From: Pseudotabrizicola sediminis | Lineage (GTDB): Bacteria > Pseudomonadota > Alphaproteobacteria > Rhodobacterales > Rhodobacteraceae | Length of the DNA: 64,000 nucleotides | Reading direction: 5' to 3' | NCBI RefSeq assembly: GCF_004745575.1 | Contig: NZ_RPEM01000004.1 | Coordinates: forward strand, 62,001-126,000 | The notes under the pieces: generated by a model | The model's database searches: none | The model's input: the letters and a program-made list of their open reading frames with translations, nothing else | What the model was told of the DNA's origin: nothing | In this document: in pieces, positions 41,320 through 57,137 of the stretch | Layout of the letters: every line of letters begins with the position of its first letter | Numbering within the stretch: the first letter of the stretch is position 1 | Position numbers and translations under genes: made by a program

Positions 41320-44300
41320 ATGTCGATCAAGGCCGCGATTCATCATCTGACGCATTACAAATATGACCGTCCGGTCACGCTGGGGCCGCAGGTCATTCGT
41401 CTGCGCCCTGCCCCGCACAGCCGGACCCGGGTGATCTCACATTCGCTCAAGGTCAGTCCGGGCGGGCATTTCGTGAACCACCAGCAGGATCCGTTCGGCA
41501 ACTGGCTGGCGCGCTTCGTGTTTCCCGAGCCGGTGCGCGAGTTCAAGATTGAGGTCGATCTGGTCGCCGACATGGCGATCTACAACCCGTTCGATTTCTT
41601 TGTCGAAGAGGCGGCGGAAACATGGCCGTTCGAGTATCCGATCGATCTGACAGATGATCTGGAAATTTACCGACGGGCCGAGCCTGCAGGGCCGCTGTTG
41701 CAGGCGTTTCTGGCTTCGGTGCCGAAAGACCGGGTGCGCAGCGTCGATTTCGTGGTGAACCTGAATGCGCAGGTGGCAGGACACTTGCGCTATACCATCC
41801 GGATGGAGCCCGGCGTGCAGACGCCCGAGGAAACGCTGGGTGTGCAAAGCGGGTCGTGCCGTGATTCCAGCTGGCTTCTGGTGCAGGCGCTGCGGCATCT
41901 GGGCTTTGCCGCGCGGTTTGTGTCGGGCTATCTGATCCAGCTGAAACCAGATCTGAAGGCGCTGGACGGCCCATCGGGCACCGAAGTAGACTTCACCGAT
42001 CTGCACGCGTGGTGCGAGGTGTATCTGCCGGGTGCGGGCTGGGTGGGCCTTGACCCGACCAGCGGCCTTTTGGCCGGCGAAAGCCATATCCCGCTGGCCG
42101 CGACCCCGCATTACCGCAACGCTGCCCCGATTTCAGGCATGGCGAGCTTTGCCGAGGTCGATTTCGCGTTTGACATGACTGTGGCCCGCGTGGCCGAACA
42201 TCCGCGCATCACCAAACCGTTCAGCGATGAGGCCTGGGATCAGCTGAATGCGCTGGGGCAAAAGGTGGATTCAGCCCTTGATGCGGGGGATGTGCGCCTG
42301 ACAATGGGCGGCGAGCCAACCTTTGTTTCCATTGACGATTTCGAGGCGGAAGAGTGGAATACCGCCGCAGTCGGCCCCACCAAGCGCGTGCTGGCCGACC
42401 AGTTGATCCGCCGCCTGCGCGACCGTTTTGCGCCAGGCGGGTTTTTGCATTACGGGCAGGGCAAATGGTATCCCGGCGAAACGCTGCCGCGCTGGACGTT
42501 CTCGCTGTACTGGCGCACCGATGGTCAGCCGATCTGGTCCGACCCCGCCCTGATCGCCGAAGAGGGCGCGCAGACAGGGGTGACCACAGAGGATGCCCAG
42601 CGTCTGCTGGCACAGATCGCCGAGGATCTGGCGCTGGAGGCCGACTGCATCGTGCCCGCCTATGAGGACCCGGCGCAATGGCTGGTCAAAGAGGCCAACC
42701 TGCCCGACAATGTGACCCCGGCCAATTCCAAGCTGAAAGACCCCGAGGAACGGCATCGTCTGGCCACCGTGTTCAACCGCGGGCTGACCAACCCTTCGGG
42801 CTTTGTGCTGCCGGTGCAAAGCTGGCAATCACAGGCCTCGGGCCGCCGCTGGCGGACCGAAAAATGGAAGCTGCGGCGCGGGCACATGTTCCTGGTGCCC
42901 GGTGACAGCCCGGTGGGCTACCGTCTGCCGCTGGAAAGCCTGCCTTGGCTGCCGCCGTCGCAATACCCCTATATCAACCCGGTTGATCCCACGGTTGACC
43001 GCGCACCGCTGCCCACCCCGAACAGCCCGGACGTGACCGAACAGCGCCCGCAAGCCTCTGCCAGCTTTACCGCCGGGGGCGCGCAGGGCGCGATGGTTGA
43101 ACAAGGCTCTGGCGAAAAGGAGTTGGATGGCCACATCCGCACTGCCCTGTCGGTGGAACCGCGCGACGGGCGGCTGTGCGTGTTCATGCCGCCGGTGGTA
43201 TCGGTGGAGGATTACCTTGAACTGGTGCGCGCCGCGGAAGAGGCGGCGAAAAAGCTGGGCCTTCAGGTCCATATCGAAGGTTATGCCCCACCGCATGACC
43301 CGCGCCTGAACGTGATCCGCGTCGCCCCCGATCCGGGCGTGATCGAGGTGAACGTGCATCCCGCCCACAACTGGCAGGACTGCGTCGATATCACGAGCGC
43401 CGTCTATGAAGAGGCGCGCCAGTGCCGCCTTGGTGCCGACAAGTTCATGATCGACGGCAAGCATGCCGGAACGGGGGGCGGCAACCATGTGGTCGTCGGC
43501 GGGGCCACACCCAATGACAGCCCCTTCCTGCGCCGGCCTGACCTGCTTCGCAGCCTGATCCTGCACTGGAACCGGCACCCATCGCTGTCTTACCTGTTTT
43601 CGGGCCTGTTCATCGGGCCAACAAGCCAAGCCCCGCGCATGGACGAGGCGCGGCACGATGCGCTGTATGAAATGGAAATCGCGCTGGCGCAGATCCCCGC
43701 CCCCGGGCAGGGTGCCGCCCCGATGCCATGGCTGGTGGACCGGCTGCTGCGCAACATGCTGACCGATGTCACCGGCAACACCCACCGGGCCGAGATCTGC
43801 ATCGACAAGCTGTTCTCGCCTGACGGCCCCACCGGGCGCCTCGGTCTGGTCGAATTCCGCGGCTTCGAGATGCCGCCAGACCCACGCATGAGCCTGTCGC
43901 AGCAACTGCTGATCCGCGCGCTGATCGCCCGGTTCTGGGCCAGCCCGGCGCAGGGGGAAATGACCCGCTGGGGCACCGCCCTGCACGACCGTTTCATGCT
44001 GCCGCACCATGTCTGGCAGGATTTCCGCGATGTGCTGGCCGACCTTGCGCAACACGGCTTCGCGCTCGATGAGGCCTGGTTCAAGGCGCAGGCCGAATTC
44101 CGCTTCCCGTTCTGCGGCGAGGTGGAATACGAAGGCGTACATCTGGAACTGCGTCAGGCGCTGGAACCCTGGCATGTGCTTGGCGAGACCGGGGCCATCG
44201 GCGGCACCGTGCGCTACACCGACAGTTCGACCGAACGGTTGCAGGTCAAGCTGACCGCGCCCGACCCGTCACGGTATCAGGTGCTGTGCAACGGTCGCAT

Positions 44301-44652
44301 GATGCCGCTGACCGGTGTGGGGGCTGGTGAGGCTGTGGCGGGCCTGCGCTACAAGGCGTGGCAGCCGTCATCGGCGATCCACCCAGTGCTGCCGGTCGAT
44401 GCGCCGCTGACCTTTGACATTTATGATACATGGTCAGCGCGCCCGCTTGGCGGCTGCGTCTATCATGTCGCCCATCCGGGCGGGCGCAACTACGACACCT
44501 TCCCCGTCAACGGCAATGAGGCCGAGGCGCGGCGGCTGGCGCGGTTCGAGGCGGGCGGCCATCGCCCCGGTCATCATCCGCGCCCCATTCCGGAACGCCC
44601 GCACCGGGAATTCCCGCTGACGCTTGACCTGAGGCGGCCCATAGGTCTCTAG
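41320..44652 (+). CDS. Transglutaminase-like domain fused to DUF2126 putative amidoligase
   Basis: 1110 residues. The N-terminal ~270 residues are a transglutaminase-like cysteine peptidase/transferase fold with complete triad: C180 ([10 protein letters not shown]), H229 (DLHAWCEVY) and D245 (GLDPTSG). The remaining ~830 residues match DUF2126, a putative glutamine-synthetase-like amidoligase, with ACID/basic segments such as [39 protein letters not shown] and [10 protein letters not shown]. The family is thought to form or break amide/isopeptide bonds, substrates unknown. It leads a three-gene operon: 7 nt to the next gene, which overlaps the third. Confidence 0.88.
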
Positions 44653-44659
44653 TCCGGCG

Positions 44660-47071
44660 ATGGACAGTGCAGCGACGGCAAATGTGAAGACAACGGGAAC
44701 CGGCAAGACGCGGGATCGCGGCCTGTCGGCCTACCGCGCCTTGCCCGGTGTGCCGGATGAGCTGGTGACGGCAGACGGCACGCTGCGGCCCCTTTGGCAG
44801 CCGCTGATCGACCATCTGCAAAGCCTGACCGACGAAGGGCTTACCCGCGCCACCGGCCGTGCCGATCAGTACCTGCGCGATTCGGGCGTGTTCTACCGGC
44901 AATATGGCTCCGGCCAGTCGGTTGAACGGCCCTGGCCCCTGAGCCATGTTCCCGTACTGATCGACGAGGCCGACTGGGCCGAGCTGACCCCCGCCCTGAT
45001 CCAGCGGGCCGATCTGCTGGAAAAGGTGATGGCGGATCTGTATGGCGACAACCGGCTGGTGGCCGAGGGGCATCTGCCTGCGGCACTGGTTGCAGGCAAC
45101 CCGGAATGGCTTCGGCCCCTTGTGGGTGTGCGCCCGGCCTCGGGGCATTTTCTGCACTTTGTGGCGTTCGAGATCGGGCGCGGGCCGGATGGCCGCTGGT
45201 GGGTACTGGCCGATCGCACACAGGCCCCCTCGGGCGCGGGCTATGCGCTGGAAAATCGGGTGGCCACCTCGCGCGCCTATACGGATGTGTTTGCCGGCCA
45301 GAACATCCACCGCCTTGCCGCGTTTTTCCGCGAATTCCGCGATGCCCTGCTGGGCCTGCGCGGCGCGCGCGATGGTCGGGTGGCGATCATGACACCCGGC
45401 CCGTTGAACGAGACCTATTTCGAGCAGGCGTGGATCGCGCGCTATATGGGCGTCTCTCTTGTGCAGGGCGAAGACCTGACCGTGGCTGATGGCCGGCTGA
45501 TGGTGCGCACGGTATCCGGCCTGCGCGCACTGGATGTGCTTTGGCGGCGATTGGACGGCAGCTACGCCGACCCGCTGGAGCTTGACCCAGCGTCGCGCAT
45601 CGGCACGCCGGGCATGGTGGCGGTGCTGCGTCAGGGCGGGCTGACCATGGTGAATTCACTGGGGTCCGGCGTGCTGGAAACCCGGGCGCTGATGGCGTTT
45701 TTGCCCAAACTGTCGCTGCATCTGACCGGCACAAAGCTGGCCATGCCCAATATCGCGACCTGGTGGTGCGGCAGCCGCGCCGAGCAGGCGCAGGTAATGG
45801 CAGCGCGCGCGCGTCTGGTGCTGTCACCTGCACTTGGCACCGGCCTGCCCTTCGACCGGCAGGGCGAAAGCATCCCTGGCGCGACGCTGACCCCGGAAGA
45901 ACTGGCGCAGCGGTTGGCACAGGAGGGGCCTGATCTGGTGGCGCAAGAGGCCGTTACCCTTTCGACCACACCTGCGCTGATCGACGGCAGGATCGTGCCG
46001 CGTCCGATGAGCCTGCGGGTGTTTCTGGCCCGCACGCCCACCGGCTGGCAGGTGATGCAGGGCGGTTTTGCCCGGATCGGGGCCTCGACCGACCCGACCG
46101 CGCTTGCGATGCAACGCGGGGGCAGTGCAGCGGATGTCTGGATCGTCAGCAAAGATGAAGTGCCCGCAATCAGCATGGTCCCCCCGGCAGATGCGCCCGA
46201 CCGGCGTTCGGTACCCGGCGCGCTGCCAACGCGGGCGGCGGACAACCTGTATTGGCTGGGCCGCTATGTCGAACGGACCGAAGGCATCATCCGTCTGCTC
46301 CGCGCCCGGCATATCCGGCTGGCCGAAGGCGGGCGCGCGGCGTTGCCGCTGCAAAAGCTGATGGATGCGGTGCTCAAAGGCTATGGCGTCGATGGCGCAG
46401 CCGGATTGCCGCCGGGACTGCTGGACACGTTGGGCGCGGCCGTGGCCACCGCCGGGCAGGTGCGCGACCGCTTTTCCCCCGATGGCTGGTCGGCGCTGAA
46501 TGATCTGGACAAGACTGCGCGGCGCATGGCCGGCAATGTGACCCCCGGCGATGATGCCGCCCGCGCCCTGTCGGCGCTGCTGCGCAAGCTGGCGGGTTTT
46601 TCCGGTCTGGTGCATGAAAACATGTACCGCTTTTTCGGCTGGCGATTCCTGTCGATCGGGCGGCAGCTGGAGCGGTCTTCTTCGCTGACCGGCGCATTGG
46701 CGGCCTTTGCAGATACCAAGGCGGCGGCTGGCGGCCTTGATCTGTGCATCGAGTTGGGCGACTCTGTGCTGACCCACCGCCGCCGCTTCAGCGTGGCGTC
46801 TTCGCGCGAGTCGGTGATCGAACTTCTGGCGCTCGACCCGATGAACCCCCGCTCGCTGCGCCATCTGTTCGACGGGCTGAACGAACAGGTGCAGACCCTG
46901 CCGGGCGCGGCCACCCATGGGCAACTGTCGCCACTAGGCCGCGCCATGCTGCGCTGTCAGGTCGATATTGCCACCGCCACGCCCGACACGCTGACCACCG
47001 CCGCGCTGCAGGATATGCGCGGCAAGATCGCCGGGATCTCTGATCTGCTGACCGAGGCCTACTTGCGGTGA
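44660..47071 (+). CDS. Circularly permuted ATP-grasp type 2 / alpha-E domain fusion
   Basis: 803 residues. The N-terminal ~480 residues are a circularly permuted type 2 ATP-grasp ligase (TPGPLNETYFEQAWIARYMGVSLVQGEDL, LPKLSLHLTG, ATWWCGSRAEQAQV). From about residue 523 (RAADNLYWLGRYVERTEGIIRLLRARH) the protein is an alpha-E helical domain to the end. In many bacteria these two domains are separate neighbouring genes; here they are one chain. ATP-grasp enzymes ligate carboxylates to amines, suggesting peptide tagging or synthesis together with the flanking transglutaminase-like proteins. Stop overlaps the next start. Confidence 0.9.
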   Translation: MDSAATANVKTTGTGKTRDRGLSAYRALPGVPDELVTADGTLRPLWQPLIDHLQSLTDEGLTRATGRADQYLRDSGVFYRQYGSGQSVERPWPLSHVPVLIDEADWAELTPALIQRADLLEKVMADLYGDNRLVAEGHLPAALVAGNPEWLRPLVGVRPASGHFLHFVAFEIGRGPDGRWWVLADRTQAPSGAGYALENRVATSRAYTDVFAGQNIHRLAAFFREFRDALLGLRGARDGRVAIMTPGPLNETYFEQAWIARYMGVSLVQGEDLTVADGRLMVRTVSGLRALDVLWRRLDGSYADPLELDPASRIGTPGMVAVLRQGGLTMVNSLGSGVLETRALMAFLPKLSLHLTGTKLAMPNIATWWCGSRAEQAQVMAARARLVLSPALGTGLPFDRQGESIPGATLTPEELAQRLAQEGPDLVAQEAVTLSTTPALIDGRIVPRPMSLRVFLARTPTGWQVMQGGFARIGASTDPTALAMQRGGSAADVWIVSKDEVPAISMVPPADAPDRRSVPGALPTRAADNLYWLGRYVERTEGIIRLLRARHIRLAEGGRAALPLQKLMDAVLKGYGVDGAAGLPPGLLDTLGAAVATAGQVRDRFSPDGWSALNDLDKTARRMAGNVTPGDDAARALSALLRKLAGFSGLVHENMYRFFGWRFLSIGRQLERSSSLTGALAAFADTKAAAGGLDLCIELGDSVLTHRRRFSVASSRESVIELLALDPMNPRSLRHLFDGLNEQVQTLPGAATHGQLSPLGRAMLRCQVDIATATPDTLTTAALQDMRGKIAGISDLLTEAYLR

Positions 47072-47952
47072 CGCTGTACGCCGTTCGCCAATCCATACGC
47101 TATGATTTCGCACGCCCCACCGGCGCGGGGCGGCAACTGTTCCGCATCCTGCCGGCCGATATTCCTGGGCGACAACAGGTGCGCGAGTCGGGCTATGCGT
47201 TTCAACCCGATGTGGGGGAACGCGGCGAGTTTCGCGACTTTTTCGGCACCAATGTGATCGAAGCCGCAATGCCCCCCGGCCTGACCCGTCTGGCGCTGAC
47301 GATGCACTCGGTGGTCGAACGCACCGCAGATGACAGTTTGCTGGATCTGTCGCCGCCCTTGCCGGGTCTGGCGGCAGAGCTTGCGGCCCATCGCAGTGTG
47401 GGGTCGCACGCGCCGCATCACTTTACCCTGCCGTCCCGCCGTATTGCGGCCACGCCCCGGATTGCCGCCTTTGCGCAGGATCTGCGCAACGACCAACGCA
47501 CGGTGCGCGATATGGTGGAAACGCTGGGCCGGGCCTTGCACGACCACATGATCTTTGATTCCAAGGCCACCAGCGTCAACACTACCCCCGAGGATGCCTT
47601 TGTTCAGGGCCGGGGCGTCTGTCAGGATTTTGCGCAGATCATGGTCGGGGCGTTGCGCAGGCTGGGCGTGCCCGCCGCCTATGTCGCGGGCTATCTGCGC
47701 ACCCTGCCGCCGCCGGGCAAGCCACGCCTGGTCGGGGCCGACGCGATGCATGCCTGGGTCCGCGCCTGGACGGGCGAGGAAATGGGCTGGGTCGATTACG
47801 ACCCGACCAATGCCTGCTTTGCCCGCAATGACCACATCGACGTGGGCTTTGGCCGCGATTACGACGATGTGGCCCCGGTAACAGGGCGGCTGCGGCTGGA
47901 CGGACGCCAGTCTGGCAGCCACAGCGTTGATATTGAAGAAATCACTTCCTAA
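47068..47952 (+). CDS. Transglutaminase family protein
   Basis: 294 residues from GTG, overlapping the ATP-grasp gene by four bases. N-terminal beta domain (SIRYDFARPTGAGRQLFRILP) of bacterial transglutaminase type, then the catalytic domain with C185 (GRGVCQDFAQ), H228 (DAMHAWVRAW) and D245 (YDPTNAC). No signal peptide, so cytosolic. It probably acts as peptidase or transferase on products of the ATP-grasp/amidoligase pair. The proteasome-like peptidase gene sometimes found next to this set is not present here. Confidence 0.9.
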   Translation: MTLYAVRQSIRYDFARPTGAGRQLFRILPADIPGRQQVRESGYAFQPDVGERGEFRDFFGTNVIEAAMPPGLTRLALTMHSVVERTADDSLLDLSPPLPGLAAELAAHRSVGSHAPHHFTLPSRRIAATPRIAAFAQDLRNDQRTVRDMVETLGRALHDHMIFDSKATSVNTTPEDAFVQGRGVCQDFAQIMVGALRRLGVPAAYVAGYLRTLPPPGKPRLVGADAMHAWVRAWTGEEMGWVDYDPTNACFARNDHIDVGFGRDYDDVAPVTGRLRLDGRQSGSHSVDIEEITS

Positions 47953-48188: not shown

Positions 48189-49628
48189 ATGGCCAATGAC
48201 ACGAAAAGCGGACTGAACACGACAACCAGCGTCATTGCGATTGCAGCCGTGATCGGCTGGATCGGCACCATTTATTTCTTCACCCAGCAACGCGACATGG
48301 CCGACCAGCTGGAAACAGCGGTCGCGGAGCGCACAACCCTGCAGCAAGACCTTGAAGCCCAGCGCACCGCGTCAGCGACGCTGTCGGAGTTGAACGCCTC
48401 AATCGCGCAGCTCTCCCCCGAAGTGGACGACAGAACGGCACAACTGGCTGCCGTGCAGGCCGAACTGGATCAGCTGACCCTTCAGCGTGACGAAGCACAG
48501 GCAGTGCTGACCGGGATCACCGCCGAGCAGGAGGCTGGTCAGAGCGCCCTGGGTGAACTGGAGGCGCAGGTTCAGCCGTTGCGCGACGAACTCGCAGGGT
48601 ATGAACAGCGCCGCGCTGATCTGGAAGCCCAGGTTGCAACGCAGACGGAAGAGATGGCGCTGGTCGGATCACGGTTGGAAGATGCGCGCGCGCGCGAAGC
48701 CGAGGTGCGCCAGGTGCTGTCTGATCTGACAGCCGAGTCGGCCACGCTCAGCGAGACGGCGGCCGAGGCAGAGACCCGCCTGCAAACCGTATTGCAAGAA
48801 GCGGCAGCGACCGAGGAAGCGACGGCGCAGTTGCGTGAAGAGTCGATCCGGCTTGAGGAACAGTCACGCAGCCTGACCGATGAGGTTGCGCGGCTGGGCG
48901 GTTTGCAGGCCACGCTGACCGAAGATGTGGCAGCCATTCAGGCGCAGCGAGAGGAGCGGCAGGCCGTGCTGAGCAGCCTGACCGAAGATGTGTCCACCCG
49001 GTCGCAAGACCTGTTGCGGATCGAGCAGCAGCTGGAAGAACGGATGGCGCAGCAGAACGCGCTGATCGCGAGTGAGGCCGAAGACTTCGGGCGCATGGCG
49101 ACGGAACAGGCGGGTGAAACGTCTGATGCGCCTGACGGCGAGGCGGGCGCAGCGGCGGCACCGGAGACAGAAGCACGGGCTGATACACCGGTTGGGTCAG
49201 ACCCAGAAGCTGGCGACCAAGACACCTCAGCAGAGCCGCAGAATGACACGCCACCTGAAGAGGATGAGGCTGGCGCGTCAGATCAGGATGCCCCCACCCA
49301 AAGCAACGCTGCCGACGAAGACGTGACTGCGACAAACCAGCCGTCGCCGTTGCTTCAGGCTGGCGAATACAATTCCGAAGACATGACCCTGGTTTTGACC
49401 GACGCAGGTACGTTTGAGATTACAGGCGACGCCCAAGCCCTGTCCGGCCAGTACACTGTAGAAGACGGTACCTTGCGGCTGGAAGCGTCGACGGATGCCG
49501 AGGCGACCGATGCCCTTCCCATGGACTGCGACTTTACCATGGGTGACACAGATGGCTTTGATGTGACCGCTGACCAAGCGACCTGCGATTTGCTGGCAGG
49601 GCGGAGCTTTTCCGCCACACAGAACTAG
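48189..49628 (+). CDS. Membrane-anchored coiled-coil protein of unknown function
   Basis: 479 residues. One N-terminal membrane span (TTSVIAIAAVIGWIGTIYFF, residues ~12-31), then ~260 residues of Glu/Gln/Ala/Leu-rich heptads forming a long coiled coil (~33-295), an acidic low-complexity linker (~300-390, rich in E, D, A, T), and a C-terminal ~90-residue beta-like domain (MTLVLTDAGTFEITGDAQALSGQYTVEDG) with two Cys. It likely projects into the periplasm like a spacer. No family recognised. GGGGGCAAG precedes the start. An exact EcfG-type promoter lies upstream, so it is a candidate stress gene. Confidence 0.8.
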   Translation: MANDTKSGLNTTTSVIAIAAVIGWIGTIYFFTQQRDMADQLETAVAERTTLQQDLEAQRTASATLSELNASIAQLSPEVDDRTAQLAAVQAELDQLTLQRDEAQAVLTGITAEQEAGQSALGELEAQVQPLRDELAGYEQRRADLEAQVATQTEEMALVGSRLEDARAREAEVRQVLSDLTAESATLSETAAEAETRLQTVLQEAAATEEATAQLREESIRLEEQSRSLTDEVARLGGLQATLTEDVAAIQAQREERQAVLSSLTEDVSTRSQDLLRIEQQLEERMAQQNALIASEAEDFGRMATEQAGETSDAPDGEAGAAAAPETEARADTPVGSDPEAGDQDTSAEPQNDTPPEEDEAGASDQDAPTQSNAADEDVTATNQPSPLLQAGEYNSEDMTLVLTDAGTFEITGDAQALSGQYTVEDGTLRLEASTDAEATDALPMDCDFTMGDTDGFDVTADQATCDLLAGRSFSATQN

Positions 49629-49679: not shown

Positions 49680-52600
49680 TCAGCGTATCGGCACCTCTGC
49701 CGCGAGGGCGAGGCGGACAAGCTCTGGCAAAGACACCGCGCGCGTCTTGCGCATCACTGAAGCGCGATGGTTCTCGACCGTGCGCTGGTTGATGCCAAGG
49801 TCATGCGCGATGATCTTGTTGGGCGCGCCCGACAGAACCAGGGTCAGAACTTCCCGCTCACGCTCGGTCAGGCCGGAAAACCGCTGCTGGGCGGCCTTGC
49901 GCGTTTCCGTCATCGGATGCGCCTTGGTGCCCGCCTTGATGGCATGCCGGATACTGGCCAGCAGATCGGCGGCACTGGCCGGCTTTTCAATCAAATCGGT
50001 TGCTCCCGCCCGCAGCGCCGCCACCGCCGTCGCGGCGTCGCCGTGGCCGGTCAGCATGACGGCGGGCAGGTCCGACTGCCGTTCGCGCAGCAGGGTGATC
50101 AGAGCGACCCCGTCCATGCCGGGCAGCAGGTTGTCCACCAGCAGGCAGGCATTGCCGCCAAGACACGGGGCGGCCAGAAAACCTTCGGCCGATTTGTAGA
50201 TGAAAACCCGCCACCCCTCGGCCTCGAACAGCCGGCGCATGGTTTCGCGGATCATCGGATCATCGTCGACGACATGCACTGTCGGCACATCCGCTTCCGG
50301 CGGCCGGGTACTCTTGCCCGCCTTGACGCGCGCCTTTCGCATCAGATCGGATATCAGCGCCAGCAGCACTTCGGGCATCACCGGTTTTGTGATCTGGTGA
50401 TGGGGCGACGCCGCAATGCGCTTCAGCGTCGACGTGGTGATATCGCCGGTCAGGATGATGGTCGGAACCGCACAGCCCAGAACATCGGGCAGATCCTGCG
50501 CCAGGGACAGCCCATTGGTCCCGCCATACAGATCGAAATCAGCCAGAAGCAGATCCGGCGGCAGCACATCGCCGCTGGCCCAGTTCAGCGCGTCCTGCGC
50601 ACTCGACTTGGCCACAACGGTATGACCCTCTCTCGTCAGAAACTCGGCCAGAAGGTCGCGCAGCGGCTCTTCATCCTCGACCACGAGAATCGTCCCGATC
50701 TGGCTCGCAACCCTTATGTGTTCTGGCACGGACTGCGCTGATGGCAATGTATCGGGTATCGGATCGGCAACCGGCAGCGTGATCATGAACGCCGATCCCT
50801 TGCCGGGGGTCGAACGGACAGTGACCGGGTGATCCATCAAATCGGCCAACCGTTGCACGATCGACAATCCCAGCCCCAGCCCCTGTCCGAAGGCCCCGGC
50901 TGGCTTGGTGGCGGTAGAATAGGCGTCAAAGATGGTTTTGGTATCCTGCGCTGCCACACCTATCCCGGTGTCACAGACAAGAAGGTTCAACACCCCGCCG
51001 CGCCGGCGGCAGCCCAGCAGGATGCCACCTTTTGGCGTATACTTCAGCGCGTTGGACAGAAGATTGCGCAGCATCTGTTCCAGAAGCTGCGGATCGGTCC
51101 GCACCCAGGCCTTGCAGGACACCGCGCGCAGCTTCAGCCCCTTTATCTTGCACTGCGGGCCGAATTCATCGGCAAGGCGCTGTATCAACGTCGCAATCGC
51201 CACCGGCCGCATCGCGGGCCGCACGATCCCGGATTCAATCCGGTTCACGTCCAGCATCGAATCCAGCATTGCGGTCATCGAGCCAAGCGTCTGATCCAGC
51301 AGCGCGGCCAGCCGTGCGCCTTCGGTTGACCGTTTGTGCGGGGCCAGCAGCTTGTGCAGCAGCGCCATGGATTGCAGCGGCTGGCGCAGATCATGGCTGG
51401 CCGAGGCGAGAAACCGCGACTTGGCTTTGGTCGCCCGCTCCGCCTCGCTCATGGCAGCCTCAAGGGCTGCATTGCTCCGTTTGCGATCCGTGATGTCGAC
51501 ATATGTGATCACCACGCCCTCGACCCGTCCGCCTTCGGCGCGATAGGGCTGGATGCGGCGCAGGAAATACTTGCCATCGGCACCTACCGTTTCACGCTCA
51601 CTGGGGTCGCCATCCGTCAGAACGGCGCGCGCATCTGCCGCCAGATCGTCATCTTTCGACACGGCAGCCAGATCGGCAATCGGCCGGCCGACATCCGTCG
51701 GGATCACCCGAAAGATTGCACGGGCGGCGGGCGTGAAAAAGCGGATGTTCAGGTCTGGGTCCAGAAACAGGGTGGCCACATCGGTGCTGAACAGCACGTT
51801 CTGCAGGTCATTCGCGGTGGTGCGGTGACGTTCCAGTGTTTCCTGCAGCTGGCTGTTCAGCGCTGTCAGCTCTTCGTTGAGCGATTGCAGCTCTTCTTTC
51901 GACGCCAGCAACTCCTCATTCGTGGACTGAAACTCTTCGTTGACCGACAGCGCCTCGGCCGCGTCCATGCCATGGGCCTCGACCTCTTCCTCCAGATCAC
52001 GCAAGGCAGCGGACAGGTCGCTGCGTGCGGCTTTCAGATCCGCTTCCAGATCGCCGGTGCGGCCATCCTGCCCGTCGGCCTCCTGTTCATCGCCCTTTGG
52101 CTGCTGACCGGAGGCGTTGACAAAACAGGCAAGCATCAACGGTTCGGTTCCGGTCGATACGGCGTGCAAGACGATGTTGAAATTGCCGGTGCCCGGCAAG
52201 CGCCCGCCCGAAACGGTCACCAAAGGGTTCTCTGGCGTGCAGGTTGCCGCAGCGGTGCGGAACCGCAGCCGCAGCGATTTCGGCAACATGCCCACAATGC
52301 CGGGGTCATGATGCCCTTGCGTGACCTTCAGATATGTTTCGGTCTCGCCAAGCAGATACAGGCATTCGAGCCGGCTGTTCAACAAAACGGCAGCGGGGGT
52401 GTAGATCTCGAACACGATGCGGCGGCACAGATCTGCCAGTTCGGTCCGGCGGACCGGGCTTTGCCCGAGAACCGATGGCAGCTCTTCGCGCTTGCCCAAC
52501 GAAAAGTTCAGATCGCCGGGCAGGCCTTTGCCAACCCTGCGCCACAGACGCGCGGCCTTGTCCTCCACGGCAAAGCTCCCGTCGCTGTGGCCCGGCATTT

Positions 52601-53996
52601 CAGCCGCCCCCAGCAACAACAGCCCGCCGGGCCGCAGGGCAAAGCAGCAGCGCGCGATCACCCGCTTTTGCGCTTCGGGGCCCAGATAGATCAGGACATT
52701 GCGGCAGGACACCAGATCGATTTTTGAAAACGGCGGGTCAGACAGCAGATCTGCCACGGTGAACACGATCAGATCTCGCAGCGCCGACGTCACGCGCCAA
52801 CCGCCGTCTGCAGGCACAAAGAATCGGGCCAGACGTTCCGGCGACACCGAGTCTTCGATGTCCCGCGCATAGAACCCCGCCCGCGCCGTGGCGATCGATT
52901 CCGGGTCAACATCCGATGCCAGGATCTGCAACCGCGCGCCCGACCCTGCGGCCTCCATTTCCTCAAGACAGGTTATGGCCAGACTATACGCCTCTTCCCC
53001 TGTGCTGCACCCGGCAACCCAGACCCGCAAGGGCCGGTCAGCCGGCATGGCCGCCAACAGATCGGGAATGGCTTTTGCAGACAGATGCTCAAACACCAAC
53101 GGATCGCGGAAAAAGCTGGTGACGTGGATCAACAGATCGGCGGACAGCTGGCTGCGTTCGTCAGGGTCAGACCGCAGAATGGCAAGATATTGCGCTGTCT
53201 TGTCTGCCCCAAGACCAATGCGCGCCATTCTGCGGGCGATCCGCCGCTCCAGCGTTCCGCGCTTGTAAAGCGAAATGTCCTGCGCGGAATGCTCGCCCAC
53301 AAAGGACAGGATCGCATCATAGCCGATGGCGGATTGATCATCCGCACGCGCAACCCCGGTTTTGCGACTCTCTGTCGGGGCAATGGCGGTGTCTGGTGCT
53401 GACAAATGTTCGGCCAGAAAGGCTTCCAGCACGCCCCGCATGGCCCCCGTTGGCAGAACGTGCGCCACAAACCCGGTCCTGATGGCACTGTCCGGCATCC
53501 CGGCCTGCCCCGCCTCGGCCGGGTCCTGCGCGATGACCAGGCCGCCTGCGGCATGAATATGGGCCAGACCATGGCTGCCGTCGGTTCCGGTGCCTGACAG
53601 GACGATACAAGCCGATGCAGGCCCCCCCTCTTCGGCTATGGAAGACAGCAGCCTGTCAAACGGCATCCGCACCGCTTTGCCGCCCCCCGGCTCTTGAAGG
53701 TGTATGACACCCAGCGACACCGTCAGAAACACGCCCGGCGGAATCACATGGACCACCCCGGCCCGCAGGGCCAGCCCTTCGGTGGCCTGAACCACCTTCA
53801 ACCCGGTATGATGTGCCAGCAGCTCGACCATCATGCTGTCATGCGACGGATCAAGATGCAGGATCAGGATGAACGCCGCGGGCATTGCATCCGGCATGGT
53901 TTTCAGCAGCGCGCGACAGGCCTCCAGCCCACCGGCAGAGGCCCCGATGGCAATGACCGGCAATACGGTGCCTGATCCTTGGTCCGACATGGTCAC
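49680..53996 (-). CDS. CheB-CheR-PAS-histidine kinase-REC-REC-LuxR multidomain protein
   Basis: 1438 residues. CheB methylesterase ~10-200 with S20 (GASAGG), H47 and D139 (GTGTDG); CheR methyltransferase ~225-490 with SAM motif AGCSTGEEAYSLA (328-340); coiled coil ~650-735; PAS ~735-840; HisKA with H868 (ASHDLRQPL); HATPase with N978/N982, CDTGIG (1008-1013) and GLGLGLS; REC1 ~1102-1220 (D1153, K1204); REC2 ~1239-1355 (D1288, K1338); LuxR-type HTH 1376-1432 (LTEREREVLTLV, RTVENHR). Every catalytic residue looks intact. Hybrid kinases and FixJ-type regulators are usually separate proteins, so one chain could sense, phosphorelay and bind DNA. No membrane span: cytosolic. The N-terminal methionine follows GGAGGT. 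Confidence 0.9.
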   Translation of the reverse strand: MTMSDQGSGTVLPVIAIGASAGGLEACRALLKTMPDAMPAAFILILHLDPSHDSMMVELLAHHTGLKVVQATEGLALRAGVVHVIPPGVFLTVSLGVIHLQEPGGGKAVRMPFDRLLSSIAEEGGPASACIVLSGTGTDGSHGLAHIHAAGGLVIAQDPAEAGQAGMPDSAIRTGFVAHVLPTGAMRGVLEAFLAEHLSAPDTAIAPTESRKTGVARADDQSAIGYDAILSFVGEHSAQDISLYKRGTLERRIARRMARIGLGADKTAQYLAILRSDPDERSQLSADLLIHVTSFFRDPLVFEHLSAKAIPDLLAAMPADRPLRVWVAGCSTGEEAYSLAITCLEEMEAAGSGARLQILASDVDPESIATARAGFYARDIEDSVSPERLARFFVPADGGWRVTSALRDLIVFTVADLLSDPPFSKIDLVSCRNVLIYLGPEAQKRVIARCCFALRPGGLLLLGAAEMPGHSDGSFAVEDKAARLWRRVGKGLPGDLNFSLGKREELPSVLGQSPVRRTELADLCRRIVFEIYTPAAVLLNSRLECLYLLGETETYLKVTQGHHDPGIVGMLPKSLRLRFRTAAATCTPENPLVTVSGGRLPGTGNFNIVLHAVSTGTEPLMLACFVNASGQQPKGDEQEADGQDGRTGDLEADLKAARSDLSAALRDLEEEVEAHGMDAAEALSVNEEFQSTNEELLASKEELQSLNEELTALNSQLQETLERHRTTANDLQNVLFSTDVATLFLDPDLNIRFFTPAARAIFRVIPTDVGRPIADLAAVSKDDDLAADARAVLTDGDPSERETVGADGKYFLRRIQPYRAEGGRVEGVVITYVDITDRKRSNAALEAAMSEAERATKAKSRFLASASHDLRQPLQSMALLHKLLAPHKRSTEGARLAALLDQTLGSMTAMLDSMLDVNRIESGIVRPAMRPVAIATLIQRLADEFGPQCKIKGLKLRAVSCKAWVRTDPQLLEQMLRNLLSNALKYTPKGGILLGCRRRGGVLNLLVCDTGIGVAAQDTKTIFDAYSTATKPAGAFGQGLGLGLSIVQRLADLMDHPVTVRSTPGKGSAFMITLPVADPIPDTLPSAQSVPEHIRVASQIGTILVVEDEEPLRDLLAEFLTREGHTVVAKSSAQDALNWASGDVLPPDLLLADFDLYGGTNGLSLAQDLPDVLGCAVPTIILTGDITTSTLKRIAASPHHQITKPVMPEVLLALISDLMRKARVKAGKSTRPPEADVPTVHVVDDDPMIRETMRRLFEAEGWRVFIYKSAEGFLAAPCLGGNACLLVDNLLPGMDGVALITLLRERQSDLPAVMLTGHGDAATAVAALRAGATDLIEKPASAADLLASIRHAIKAGTKAHPMTETRKAAQQRFSGLTEREREVLTLVLSGAPNKIIAHDLGINQRTVENHRASVMRKTRAVSLPELVRLALAAEVPIR

Positions 53997-55898: not shown

Positions 55899-56390
55899 AT
55901 GACCATCGAAACCCTAGACGATCTGTTCCTTCACACGTTGAAAGACGTGCTGTACGCCGAGCGAAAGATCCTGAAGGCGCTGCCAAAGATGGAGCGAAAG
56001 GCGACCGATCCGAAGCTCAAGGCGGCCCTGTCATCGCACCGTGACGAGACCGAAGAGCATATTGTGCGGCTGGAAGAGGTTTTCGACAGCCTTGGAAAAC
56101 CGGCCCGCGGCGCGAAATGCGACGCGATGGTCGGGCTGATCGAAGAAGCCGAGGGCCTTATGGCAGACATCAATGATCCAGAGACAATGGATGCCGCGTT
56201 GATCTCGCTGGCCCAAGCGGTCGAACACTATGAAATCGCGCGCTATGGCACGCTGATCGCATGGGCAAAACAGCTGGGCCATCCGCAGGCGGCGAGCCTG
56301 CTCAAATCAACTCTGGACGAAGAATACGGGGCCGACAAAGCCCTTTCCAAGCTGGCAGAACAGCGCCTGAACGCCGCCGCTGCGGCATAG
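55899..56390 (+). CDS. YciE/YciF ferritin-like family protein (DUF892)
   Basis: 163 residues, all helical. The pattern TLDDLFLHTLKDVLYAERKILKALPKM, followed by ALSSHRDETEEHIVRLEEVFDSLG, then VEHYEIARYGTLIAWAKQLG and LKSTLDEEYGADKALSKLAE, gives the ferritin-like four-helix bundle with its Glu/His metal residues. Members of this family are induced by osmotic and general stress in several bacteria; activity is unproven. TTAAGGAG precedes the start. Two hairpins follow the stop. Confidence 0.92.
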   Translation: MTIETLDDLFLHTLKDVLYAERKILKALPKMERKATDPKLKAALSSHRDETEEHIVRLEEVFDSLGKPARGAKCDAMVGLIEEAEGLMADINDPETMDAALISLAQAVEHYEIARYGTLIAWAKQLGHPQAASLLKSTLDEEYGADKALSKLAEQRLNAAAAA

Positions 56391-56540: not shown

Positions 56541-57137
56541 ATGACACAGCAACATCCTTTCCACGAACTTTTGCCCCTGCAAGCGGTGTCCCTGCGCCGC
56601 CGCGCGCTCAAGCTGACCTCGAACCCGCATCGCGCCGAAGATCTGGTGCAGACAACCCTTCTCAAGGCCTGGAGCAGCCGTGACAGCTTCCGGCCTGAAA
56701 CGAACCTGCGGGCCTGGTTGTTCACCATCCTGCGCAACACCTTCTTTTCCGAGATCCGGAAATTCCGCCGGGAAGTCGAAGATGTTGACGGGTTGCGCGC
56801 CGAAGCCCTGTTTGAAGAGCCCAGACAGGAACACGCAGTGGCGCTGAACGAATTGCTGGCGGTGATTGCCCGGCTGCCCCATGACCAGCGTCGCCCGCTG
56901 GTGTTGATGGGGGTGCTTGGGTTTTCGCAACTGCAGGCGGCACAGGCCTGCGGCTGCACGGTCGGCACAATCAAAAGCAGGGTGAGCCGCAGCAGAGCCG
57001 CGCTGGAACGGTTGATGACGCAAGACGATATGATGCGTTTGAACCGGGTGCCGCATACAGGCGTAACCCTGCAGGGGTCAACAATACCGCCCGCGTATAT
57101 CGCTGCAAAGATGAATGAGCCCGCCAGTGTGGACTGA
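56541..57137 (+). CDS. EcfG-like ECF sigma factor
   Basis: 198 residues. Sigma-2 region: ALKLTSNPHRAEDLVQTTLLKAW and the conserved LRAWLFTILRNTFFSEIRKFRRE; sigma-4 region: LPHDQRRPLVLMGVLGFSQLQAAQACGCTVGTIKSRVSRSRAALE. This matches the EcfG/SigT group that directs the alphaproteobacterial general stress response; it may be a second, orphan copy, because nepR and phyR are not adjacent. A C-terminal tail of ~35 residues (after LERLM) is longer than usual. No strong ribosome-binding site is seen before ATG 56541. EcfG-type boxes occur near three genes of this region. Confidence 0.87.
   Translation: MTQQHPFHELLPLQAVSLRRRALKLTSNPHRAEDLVQTTLLKAWSSRDSFRPETNLRAWLFTILRNTFFSEIRKFRREVEDVDGLRAEALFEEPRQEHAVALNELLAVIARLPHDQRRPLVLMGVLGFSQLQAAQACGCTVGTIKSRVSRSRAALERLMTQDDMMRLNRVPHTGVTLQGSTIPPAYIAAKMNEPASVD

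Follow-up and report, generated by a model that had tools for sequence, protein, structure and literature searches.

Domain architecture

CheR methyltransferases and CheB methylesterases are known as chemotaxis adaptation enzymes. In the 64,000-nucleotide stretch of Pseudotabrizicola sediminis DNA analysed here (the window), both are fused to a histidine kinase. Positions 53996–49680 of the minus strand form a real open reading frame of 1438 codons, counted from a GTG at 53996. A GGAGG motif shares one base with this GTG and is placed 5 nt upstream of an in-frame ATG at 53990. Due to this position the ATG is the probable start, and the protein likely comprises 1436 residues.

Table 1. Features of the fusion gene and its divergent neighbours (positions in the window).
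Feature	Residues	Position	Strand	Remarks
Whole ORF, CheB-CheR-PAS-helix-PAS-HK-REC-REC-LuxR		49680..53996	-	Likely start ATG at 53990
CheB methylesterase domain	15–187	53436..53954	-	Pfam; S20/H47/D139
CheR_N helical domain	226–278	53163..53321	-	Pfam; basic stretch at 244–257
CheR SAM-binding methyltransferase domain	292–475	52572..53123	-	Pfam; T293/R297/E334/D362
Second PAS-fold domain, unannotated	about 514–627	52116..52457	-	AF2, Foldseek, VIA-align
Continuous signalling helix	647–737	51786..52058	-	AF2 prediction
Four glutamate-pair heptads	686–713	51858..51941	-	Candidate methylation sites E688/E695/E702/E709
PAS_10	731–836	51489..51806	-	Pfam
HisKA	858–923	51228..51425	-	Pfam; phosphoacceptor H868
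HATPase_c	968–1077	50766..51095	-	Pfam
Receiver 1 (limits set by hand)	about 1105–1225	50322..50684	-	Pfam; D1153
Receiver 2	1240–1349	49950..50279	-	Pfam; D1288
GerE/LuxR, FixJ-type DNA-binding domain	1375–1430	49707..49874	-	Pfam; NCBIfam/phmmer resemblance to FixJ
Conserved hypothetical protein, 304 aa		54564..55478	+	At 5/14 orthologue loci
DUF892 protein		55899..56390	+	At 8/14 loci; Pfam PF05974
ECF sigma factor similar to the EcfG/PhyR sigma domain		56541..57137	+	At 10/14 loci; Pfam PhyR_sigma2

The first-pass annotation had described a single protein with CheB, CheR, PAS, histidine kinase, two receivers and a LuxR domain. All of these were found by Pfam, and each named domain scored above its own curated cut-off (CheB 159.5 bits against 24, CheR_N 37.2 against 27 and CheR 164.2 against 27). 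The receiver that typically precedes CheB in chemotaxis was not found by Pfam N-terminal to this CheB, which begins at residue 15. Pfam also shows no CHASE3, HAMP or GAF domain in the protein. No strongly hydrophobic 19-residue window is present by hydropathy; the maximum Kyte-Doolittle mean of 1.87 lies within the CheB domain.

The catalytic and phosphoacceptor residues listed at first pass (S20, H47, D139, AGCSTGEEAYS at 328, H868, D1153 and D1288) are all in place. Counting the window's own, 66 rows have HATPase-REC-REC-LuxR; of these, 63 keep H868 (one Leu and two fragments without the domain), and D1153 and D1288 are kept in 65 each. The Ser-His-Asp residues of CheB are present in 119 of the 124 rows in which CheB is aligned. 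Of 59 fusion-type rows in which CheR was matched, 54 keep its key residues (Thr, Arg, Glu or Gln, and Asp); the remainder comprises four cut or unaligned rows and one degenerate row. In the basic stretch of CheR_N, Arg251 and Arg256 are found in 125/125 aligned homologues.

A receptor domain had been reported as missing. This does not hold, since the protein has two PAS domains, PAS_10 and a PAS fold at residues ~514–627. The AF2 core blocks of the latter have pLDDT values of 77–91 with a single dip to 64, its best Foldseek match is a PAS domain (E = 6e-4), and it aligns with the PAS domain of TraJ by VIA-align (Z 10.2, 110 aligned residues, r.m.s. deviation 3.5). According to the predicted model, this region is a second PAS-fold sensory domain. 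Between the PAS domains AF2 predicts one long helix (model residues 639–729, block pLDDT 36–77, and 65–74 over the glutamate pairs described below). The interdomain geometry of the model was set aside as uninformative (pTM 0.32).

Integrity and distribution of the fusion

The REC-LuxR part might be a separate gene joined to the kinase by a lost stop codon. Shorter, split or broken forms do exist. A Methylocystis bryophila form stops at query residue 1225, with a transposase gene ~290 bp past its end, L154 ends at query residue 1225, L153 has CheB split from CheR, and L191, L114 and L103 are broken. Nine relatives (L005–L013, 58–73% identity) cross the same region with an uninterrupted single ORF, as do many others. 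A lost stop or frameshift near the junction was thus ruled out, and an artefact of this kind is extremely improbable. The fused form prevails among the relatives seen, which does not fit a separate REC-LuxR gene whose stop was lost in the window.

Thirteen further genomes in a 385-genome sample of the class carry the fusion, and it is also found on plasmids of many genera, including two Caballeronia plasmids. In a 398-genome sample of the phylum, full-length matches were found in two genomes only (G000 and G235), at two candidates scored per genome, so that copies may be missed in such large samples. Rarity of the fusion was rejected in view of its spread over Alphaproteobacteria and on plasmids. 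The usual public annotation is 'chemotaxis protein CheB'.

Glutamate pairs on the signalling helix

The predicted helix carries glutamate pairs at a spacing of seven residues (687/688, 694/695, 701/702 and 708/709). Chemoreceptor methylation sites follow the consensus EExxA[S/T] (excerpt of PMC1079850). The match is exact at 694/695, Ser replaces Ala at 687, and the pairs at 701 and 708 match partially. Pairs one to three are invariant across 129 CheR-bearing homologues. In 130 proteins the relaxed motif EExx[AST][ST] occurs 297 times in the 13,000 residues directly before PAS versus 18 times in the remaining 158,748 residues, and none was found in 21 kinase ORFs without CheR. The relaxed form is present in 128/130 proteins, whereas only 43/130 have at least one pair with the exact, Ala-containing consensus.

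With L115 set aside, the entropy is 0.03 and 0.02 bits at f and g, the heptad positions facing outward, versus 0.83 and 1.42 bits at a and d. In the aligned sequences f and g are more conserved than a and d, opposite to what an ordinary coiled coil shows. In two chemoreceptors of the window's genome, sites were seen with the pattern used here but none are seven residues apart; the motif comparison consequently rests on the published Tsr and FrzCD.

Co-occurrence of the glutamate pairs with CheR

Rows were admitted to this comparison if CheR Arg297 was aligned or if they were among eight CheR-minus ORFs listed by hand. With the CheR state assigned by hand, the motif being in view, and a run of three or more pairs counted as presence, 136 rows have both CheR and the pairs, eight have neither and none is discordant. 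Intact helices without CheR were sought among the matches in short ORFs only. In four CheR-minus rows (L188, L183, L193 and L260) most of the helix is missing too, and hence erosion in place is confined to L115, L161, L259 and L266. The supported branches of the tree force only four changes of CheR, for which a sign test yields p = 0.125, with 0.05 out of its reach.

Individual rows give more detail. L115, a sister of L109, has lost the key Arg of CheR; helix identity is down to 15/39 versus 31/40 for L109 and L110, and other parts of L115 are conserved (HisKA 67/85, HTH 56/70). In L113 CheB is dead (F-S-T), and CheR and the glutamate pairs are intact. In L266 the Ser-His-Asp residues of CheB are present, CheR is absent and the pairs are eroded. 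Some 7 kb away from L161/L117, which is a CheR-minus row, there is a stand-alone CheR, and a free CheR is also possible in other CheR-minus genomes.

Some rows were left out of this comparison. L268 and L269 have no such helix, and L174, L175 and L187 are locus-truncated copies. L179, L192, L015 and L103 retain runs of 4–6 pairs; in the tree they stand outside the CheR counts together with L191 and L016, their CheR state being left unassigned because a contig end cuts the row or CheR lies on a broken or neighbouring ORF. The pairs are intact in L258, where a transposase-like ORF separates CheB-CheR from the helix, and in L267, where CheB-CheR and helix-PAS lie on two overlapping ORFs. The excluded L262, a broken fragment of 252 residues by a contig end, has three glutamate heptads, and its 3.8 kb show no CheR. 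This fragment is a possible counter-example to the link between CheR and the pairs.

Chemoreceptors in carrier genomes

MCP domains were found in 27 of 32 searched genomes, a set that takes in G334 and G353 (here only CheR-less forms are known) and G474 (broken fusion). The other five have none, and no CheW was found in them either; one of the five is G474, in which the fusion is broken in its CheR part. No CheR other than the fusion was found in G026 and G244. The genome from which the window comes encodes MCPs and CheW, as well as CheB and CheR separate from the fusion. A chemotaxis adaptation enzyme would be expected alongside chemoreceptors; not every genome with the fusion has them. The sequence patterns suggest that the methylation enzymes tune the fused kinase and not chemotaxis.

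Proposed mechanism and alternatives

The protein may act in the cytoplasm as a stress signalling system in a single chain, with adaptation built in. An internal cue would be sensed by the two PAS domains, and the long helix between them would couple to the kinase. Phosphate would pass from H868 to REC1 and/or to the fused REC2-LuxR module, whose resemblance to FixJ makes a FixJ-like output likely. This output may control nearby stress genes, namely those of the DUF892 protein and the EcfG-like sigma factor. The sigma factor scores 39.3 bits with PhyR_sigma2 (Pfam cut-off 27), and a single NCBIfam model, that for sigma70-ECF factors in general, exceeds its cut-off among the best 25 of 75 matches. 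Conservation of these divergent neighbours was seen among close relatives only. CheR would methylate and CheB demethylate the glutamates of the helix, in cis or within a dimer, and methylation would set kinase gain as it does in chemoreceptors. Sensing, modification of the protein itself or a partner, phosphate relay and gene regulation had been suggested for this chain at first pass. The overall scheme fits, and its self-modification part agrees with the tracking of CheR by the glutamate pairs and with the chemoreceptor-free carriers. A multi-step relay within the chain is not supported, because Pfam shows no HPt domain and a full His-Asp-His-Asp relay is therefore not encoded.

The enzymes could instead act in trans on chemoreceptors and tie chemotaxis adaptation to gene control. 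The public annotation, the MCP domains in most carrier genomes and the chemotaxis proteins of the window's genome agree with this. The genomes without MCP and CheW (G474 with its broken fusion among them) and those in which the fusion is the only CheR found argue against it, and it leaves the absence of the pairs from the protein's own helix upon CheR loss unexplained; it is considered improbable. That the pairs merely stabilise the helix, with a structural conservation independent of CheR, is less probable still. Kinases often have long signalling helices, the AF2 model shows a single helix, and L262 keeps the pairs with no CheR seen, but positions a and d vary more than the outward f and g, the pattern is absent from the matching kinase ORFs without CheR, and loss of the pairs accompanies loss of CheR.

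A stronger competitor, though an unlikely one, is that the heptads form a docking surface or rigid lever and that the CheR and CheB domains sense SAM or other ligands, the helix being unmethylated. Joint loss of the pairs and CheR is predicted here as well, co-conservation alone cannot separate binding from catalysis, and only one of the four pairs in the window's protein has the exact consensus. On the other hand, the catalytic residues of both enzymes are conserved, the seven-residue spacing is that of chemoreceptor sites, RsbK provides a precedent, and CheB would serve no use without a methyl ester. The intact enzyme sites, the glutamate pairs and their link to CheR, the chemoreceptor-free carriers and the RsbK/RsbM precedent favour self-methylation. 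Accordingly, reversible methylation of the signalling helix by the protein's own CheR and CheB, tuning a PAS-kinase-receiver-FixJ stress regulator, is put at a probability of roughly 0.57 from sequence patterns, a value set slightly lower on account of the few proteins with an exact-consensus pair. The broader proposal is a self-adapting histidine kinase in which one chain serves as sensor, kinase and transcription factor and keeps a reversible memory by methylation, with the CheB-CheR-PAS superfamily, by extension, performing non-chemotactic adaptation of its own helix across Pseudomonadota; its chances are judged to be just short of even. If true, chemotaxis adaptation chemistry also operates inside single-chain stress kinases, and many 'chemotaxis protein CheB' entries are misnamed.

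Comparison with known systems

The fusion shares the seven-residue spacing, at least one consensus pair and the enzyme residues with the adaptation of chemoreceptors (Tsr/Tar acted on by CheR and CheB, FrzCD by FrzF). It differs in that its chain has no receptor, CheA or CheW domain, and enzyme and presumed substrate are one protein. CheB-CheR-PAS (PAS_10) proteins of many Pseudomonadota share its N-terminal half, including the glutamate helix, but most of these matches lose similarity near residue 850, ahead of the kinase. Azospirillum kinases with CheB and methyltransferase domains are counted in an excerpt of PMC4618731. In the excerpts of open-licence literature consulted, no description of this architecture or of helix self-methylation in CheB-CheR-PAS proteins was met; a prior proposal in de Been 2011 is possible.

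Kinase and REC1 resemble NahK/ErcS and the C-terminus resembles FixJ, here fused in one chain. The top NCBIfam match overall is NahK/ErcS near_NosP_CTERM (residues 853–1218, 315 bits, below the cut-off of 400), FixJ (NF006900) covers residues 1238–1434 with 219.6 bits (below the cut-off of 255), and the best phmmer match is FixJ 5xso. Bacteroides hybrid two-component systems likewise combine a kinase with a receiver and a DNA-binding domain in a single chain, but they are membrane-spanning, have AraC-type outputs and are not known to contain methylation enzymes.

The closest functional parallel may be Bacillus cereus RsbM, which methylates the signalling helix of the hybrid kinase RsbK in trans in sigma-B stress control. 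RsbM is a free-standing protein and lacks a methylesterase counterpart; RsbK, a kinase of the CHASE3-HAMP-GAF type, spans the membrane and sends its signal to a phosphatase, its receiver modulating the output (PMC4574943). In both cases a CheR-type enzyme is paired with a hybrid kinase that has a signalling helix and a receiver (Pfam, AF2). The fusion differs in carrying both CheR and CheB in the chain, in PAS sensing and in its fused FixJ-type DNA-binding output. As CHASE3, HAMP and GAF are absent, it is RsbK-like in its proposed working and is not classed as an RsbK. The predicted substrate is specified to the residue (E688, E695, E702 and E709). Thus, the question raised by RsbK and RsbM, how methylation of the helix governs kinase output and how it is undone, becomes testable with one purified protein.

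Domain architecture of the fusion

The first-pass annotation had described one chain joining CheB, CheR, PAS, histidine kinase, two receivers and LuxR. This list is borne out: CheB, CheR_N, CheR, PAS_10, HisKA, HATPase_c, two receiver stretches and LuxR all match Pfam models above the curated cut-offs, and every residue it had named is present. The signalling residues are near-invariant across 66 homologue rows. An in-frame ATG is a more plausible start than the GTG (see table).

The top NCBIfam match of the kinase part is the NahK/ErcS hybrid kinase model and the C-terminal part matches the FixJ model, both below cut-off. A free response regulator of the same genome shares 52% identity with the second receiver (REC2) and LuxR domain of the fusion. 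In the chain, a NahK-like hybrid kinase thus follows a CheB-CheR-PAS front and precedes an entire FixJ-like regulator.

The structure of residues 484-660 was predicted alone, with ten relatives in the input. The predicted fold is strand-strand-helix-helix-three-strand (pLDDT 65 on average; 77-91 in the core blocks except for one dip to 64). Foldseek ranks a PAS domain first (E 6e-4), as its only match below 0.001; the list also contains some MglB chains. VIA-align gave Z 10.2 against the TraJ PAS domain and a list of mostly PAS domains. The model thus indicates a hidden PAS domain in this region.

Positions of the fusion ORF, its parts and associated features (nucleotides in the window or in homologue loci (L-numbers); residues of the fusion counted from the GTG)
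Sequence	Position	Feature
Window	53996 to 49680, minus strand	Fusion ORF, 1438 codons from GTG
Window	53990	In-frame ATG, GGAGG 5 nt upstream
Window	48189-49628	479-aa protein, convergent to the fusion and adjoining its 3' end
Window	41320-47952	Three-gene run: transglutaminase/DUF2126 amidoligase protein; circularly permuted ATP-grasp plus Alpha-E protein; second transglutaminase-like protein
Fusion	484-660	Region of the predicted hidden PAS domain
Fusion	647-737	Predicted continuous helix
Fusion	687/688, 694/695, 701/702, 708/709	Glutamate pairs, candidate methylation sites
Fusion	853-1218	NahK/ErcS model match
Fusion	1238-1434	FixJ model match
L064	7985-8716	Free response regulator (FixJ-like) with 52% identity to the fused REC2-LuxR; window's genome
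L064	8738-9739	Adjoining ORF, PAS-containing by eye; possible kinase of this regulator
L115	7813-11415	CheB-less relative, degenerate CheR, Asn for the REC2 phosphoacceptor Asp
L258	2573-4465	Transposase-like ORF (IS66-like by eye) splitting the CheB-CheR half of a homologue from its helix-PAS half

Distribution in relatives

The ORF could have arisen from a lost stop codon, the outcome that the first-pass annotation had named as fatal to its claim. One scan of named genomes yielded 16 loci, 12 of them (L005-L016) from close relatives. Nine of these 12 are full length (58-73% identity, best segment) and each is a single ORF; an artefact is therefore ruled out.

Full-length matches occur in 4 of 295 genomes of the family sample, the window's genome counted; beyond those, G012 has a diverged single ORF with unchanged domain order. 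Near-full-length matches (41-54% identity) were found in 13 other genomes of 385 in the class sample, one of them (G641) with an internal stop, and G000 and G235 have the only full-length matches among 398 genomes of the phylum sample. Matches spanning at least 80% of the query occur in 26 plasmid records. Among the matches listed, at least 18 rows reach 98-100% coverage, including Roseicitreum, Methylocystis, Novosphingobium, Phyllobacterium, Sphingomonas, Acidiphilium, Agrobacterium and the betaproteobacterium Caballeronia; these 18 genes are named 'chemotaxis protein CheB', 'CheR family methyltransferase', 'histidine kinase' or not at all. CheB is a separate ORF in Methylocapsa, and a Methylocystis bryophila relative lacks REC2-LuxR. 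The architecture is confirmed and ordinary in distribution.

Some relatives are longer. L189 and L190 (1593 and 1631 aa) have, by eye, an extra PAS-like stretch between PAS_10 and kinase, as does L195 (1598 aa, cut at the locus end), which carries Leu at the phosphoacceptor His position.

Signalling helix and glutamate pairs

The model of residues 9-860 contains one continuous helix (block pLDDT 36-77; 65-74 over the glutamate pairs). Its overall pTM is 0.32, so domain placement is uninformative. The helix includes EEFQST-N-EELLAS-K-EELQSL-N-EELTAL. Compared with the chemoreceptor consensus EExxA[S/T], the pair at 694 is exact, that at 687 has Ser for Ala, and 701 and 708 are partial. The methylation sites given for FrzCD are E168, E175 and E182 (PMC2535941).

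Distinct homologues that have both CheR and this PAS number 130. All but one (129) carry at least four pairs at seven-residue spacing; the exception, L115, has lost key CheR residues. At least one exact consensus pair occurs in 43/130 and the relaxed EExx[AST][ST] in 128/130. Glu occupies positions 687, 688, 694, 695, 701 and 702 in every one of the 129 homologues, with mean heptad entropies of 0.03 (f) and 0.02 (g) versus 0.83 (a) and 1.42 bits (d). The motif was found in none of 21 CheR-less kinase ORFs matching the same kinase region.

Natural losses of CheR were compared over 144 rows, with CheR state assigned non-blind and the motif scored as a run of at least three pairs. Both are present in 136 rows, both absent in eight, and no row is discordant. 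On the PAS tree each requires seven changes, four forced by supported branches. The kinase-to-LuxR tree (66 rows) has four CheR changes, which we infer to be losses, and the motif changes alongside in all four. With so few supported changes, sign tests reach only p 0.125. Most of the helix is absent from L188, L183, L193 and L260; L115, L161, L259 and L266 retain it with eroded pairs. L266 keeps the CheB S-H-D residues without CheR, and L113 has a CheB dead by alignment with CheR and motif intact. From these two sequences, the motif appears to follow CheR rather than CheB. L262 is a possible counter-example to the CheR link.

Chemotaxis and stress

Among 32 genomes carrying the fusion or its CheR-less form, neither an MCP signalling domain (E 0.001) nor CheW was found in five (G026, G244, G617, G474, G1104). 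The fusion, whose orthologue is 77% identical in G026 and 73% in G244, is the sole CheR found in those two genomes; it is broken within CheR in G474 and intact in the sister G1104. Its role is probably not confined to chemotaxis. In classical CheR a basic helix binds receptors; the corresponding stretch is kept here, with R251 and R256 in all 125 aligned homologues.

Genes on the divergent side encode a conserved 304-aa protein (recurring in 5 of 14 orthologue loci), a DUF892 protein (8) and an EcfG-like sigma factor (10); contig ends cut some of these loci. Individual distant relatives have PRC-barrel, OmpA-like, Dps-like, slipin, universal stress or cardiolipin synthase genes nearby, several of these names being a reading of the sequences. 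Together, these neighbours point to stress control, with a putative regulon.

The convergent 479-aa protein has, by eye, an N-terminal hydrophobic stretch and a long coiled-coil-like middle; its domain-model matches are generic coiled-coil only, all below cut-off. In plasmid relatives a divergent gene lies directly upstream of the fusion, encoding a response regulator of about 120 aa (L147, L149, L155, L156) or a response regulator transcription factor (L148, L152); in L155 a stand-alone 201-aa CheB adjoins it. This regulator, absent from the window, is possibly an extra partner.

Comparison with known systems

The fusion is probably a self-adapting kinase-regulator, in which CheR and CheB would reversibly methylate the protein's own signalling helix and tune the kinase. 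We put this slightly above even odds (about 0.57), a little lowered because just 43 of 130 proteins, and one of the four pairs here, have the exact consensus. Methylation and phosphate flow are putative, as are the signal and the DNA targets. The mechanism exposed by the fusion is more interesting than the version first proposed.

The closest known counterpart is Bacillus cereus RsbM, which methylates the hybrid kinase RsbK on its signalling helix and represses sigma-B (PMC4574943, PMC12848376); RsbM is described as an orphan without methylesterase (PMC4574943). CheB and methyltransferase domains have been counted within kinases of Azospirillum (PMC4618731). Whereas RsbM acts on a separate RsbK and has no methylesterase, enzyme, eraser and substrate would here be one chain.
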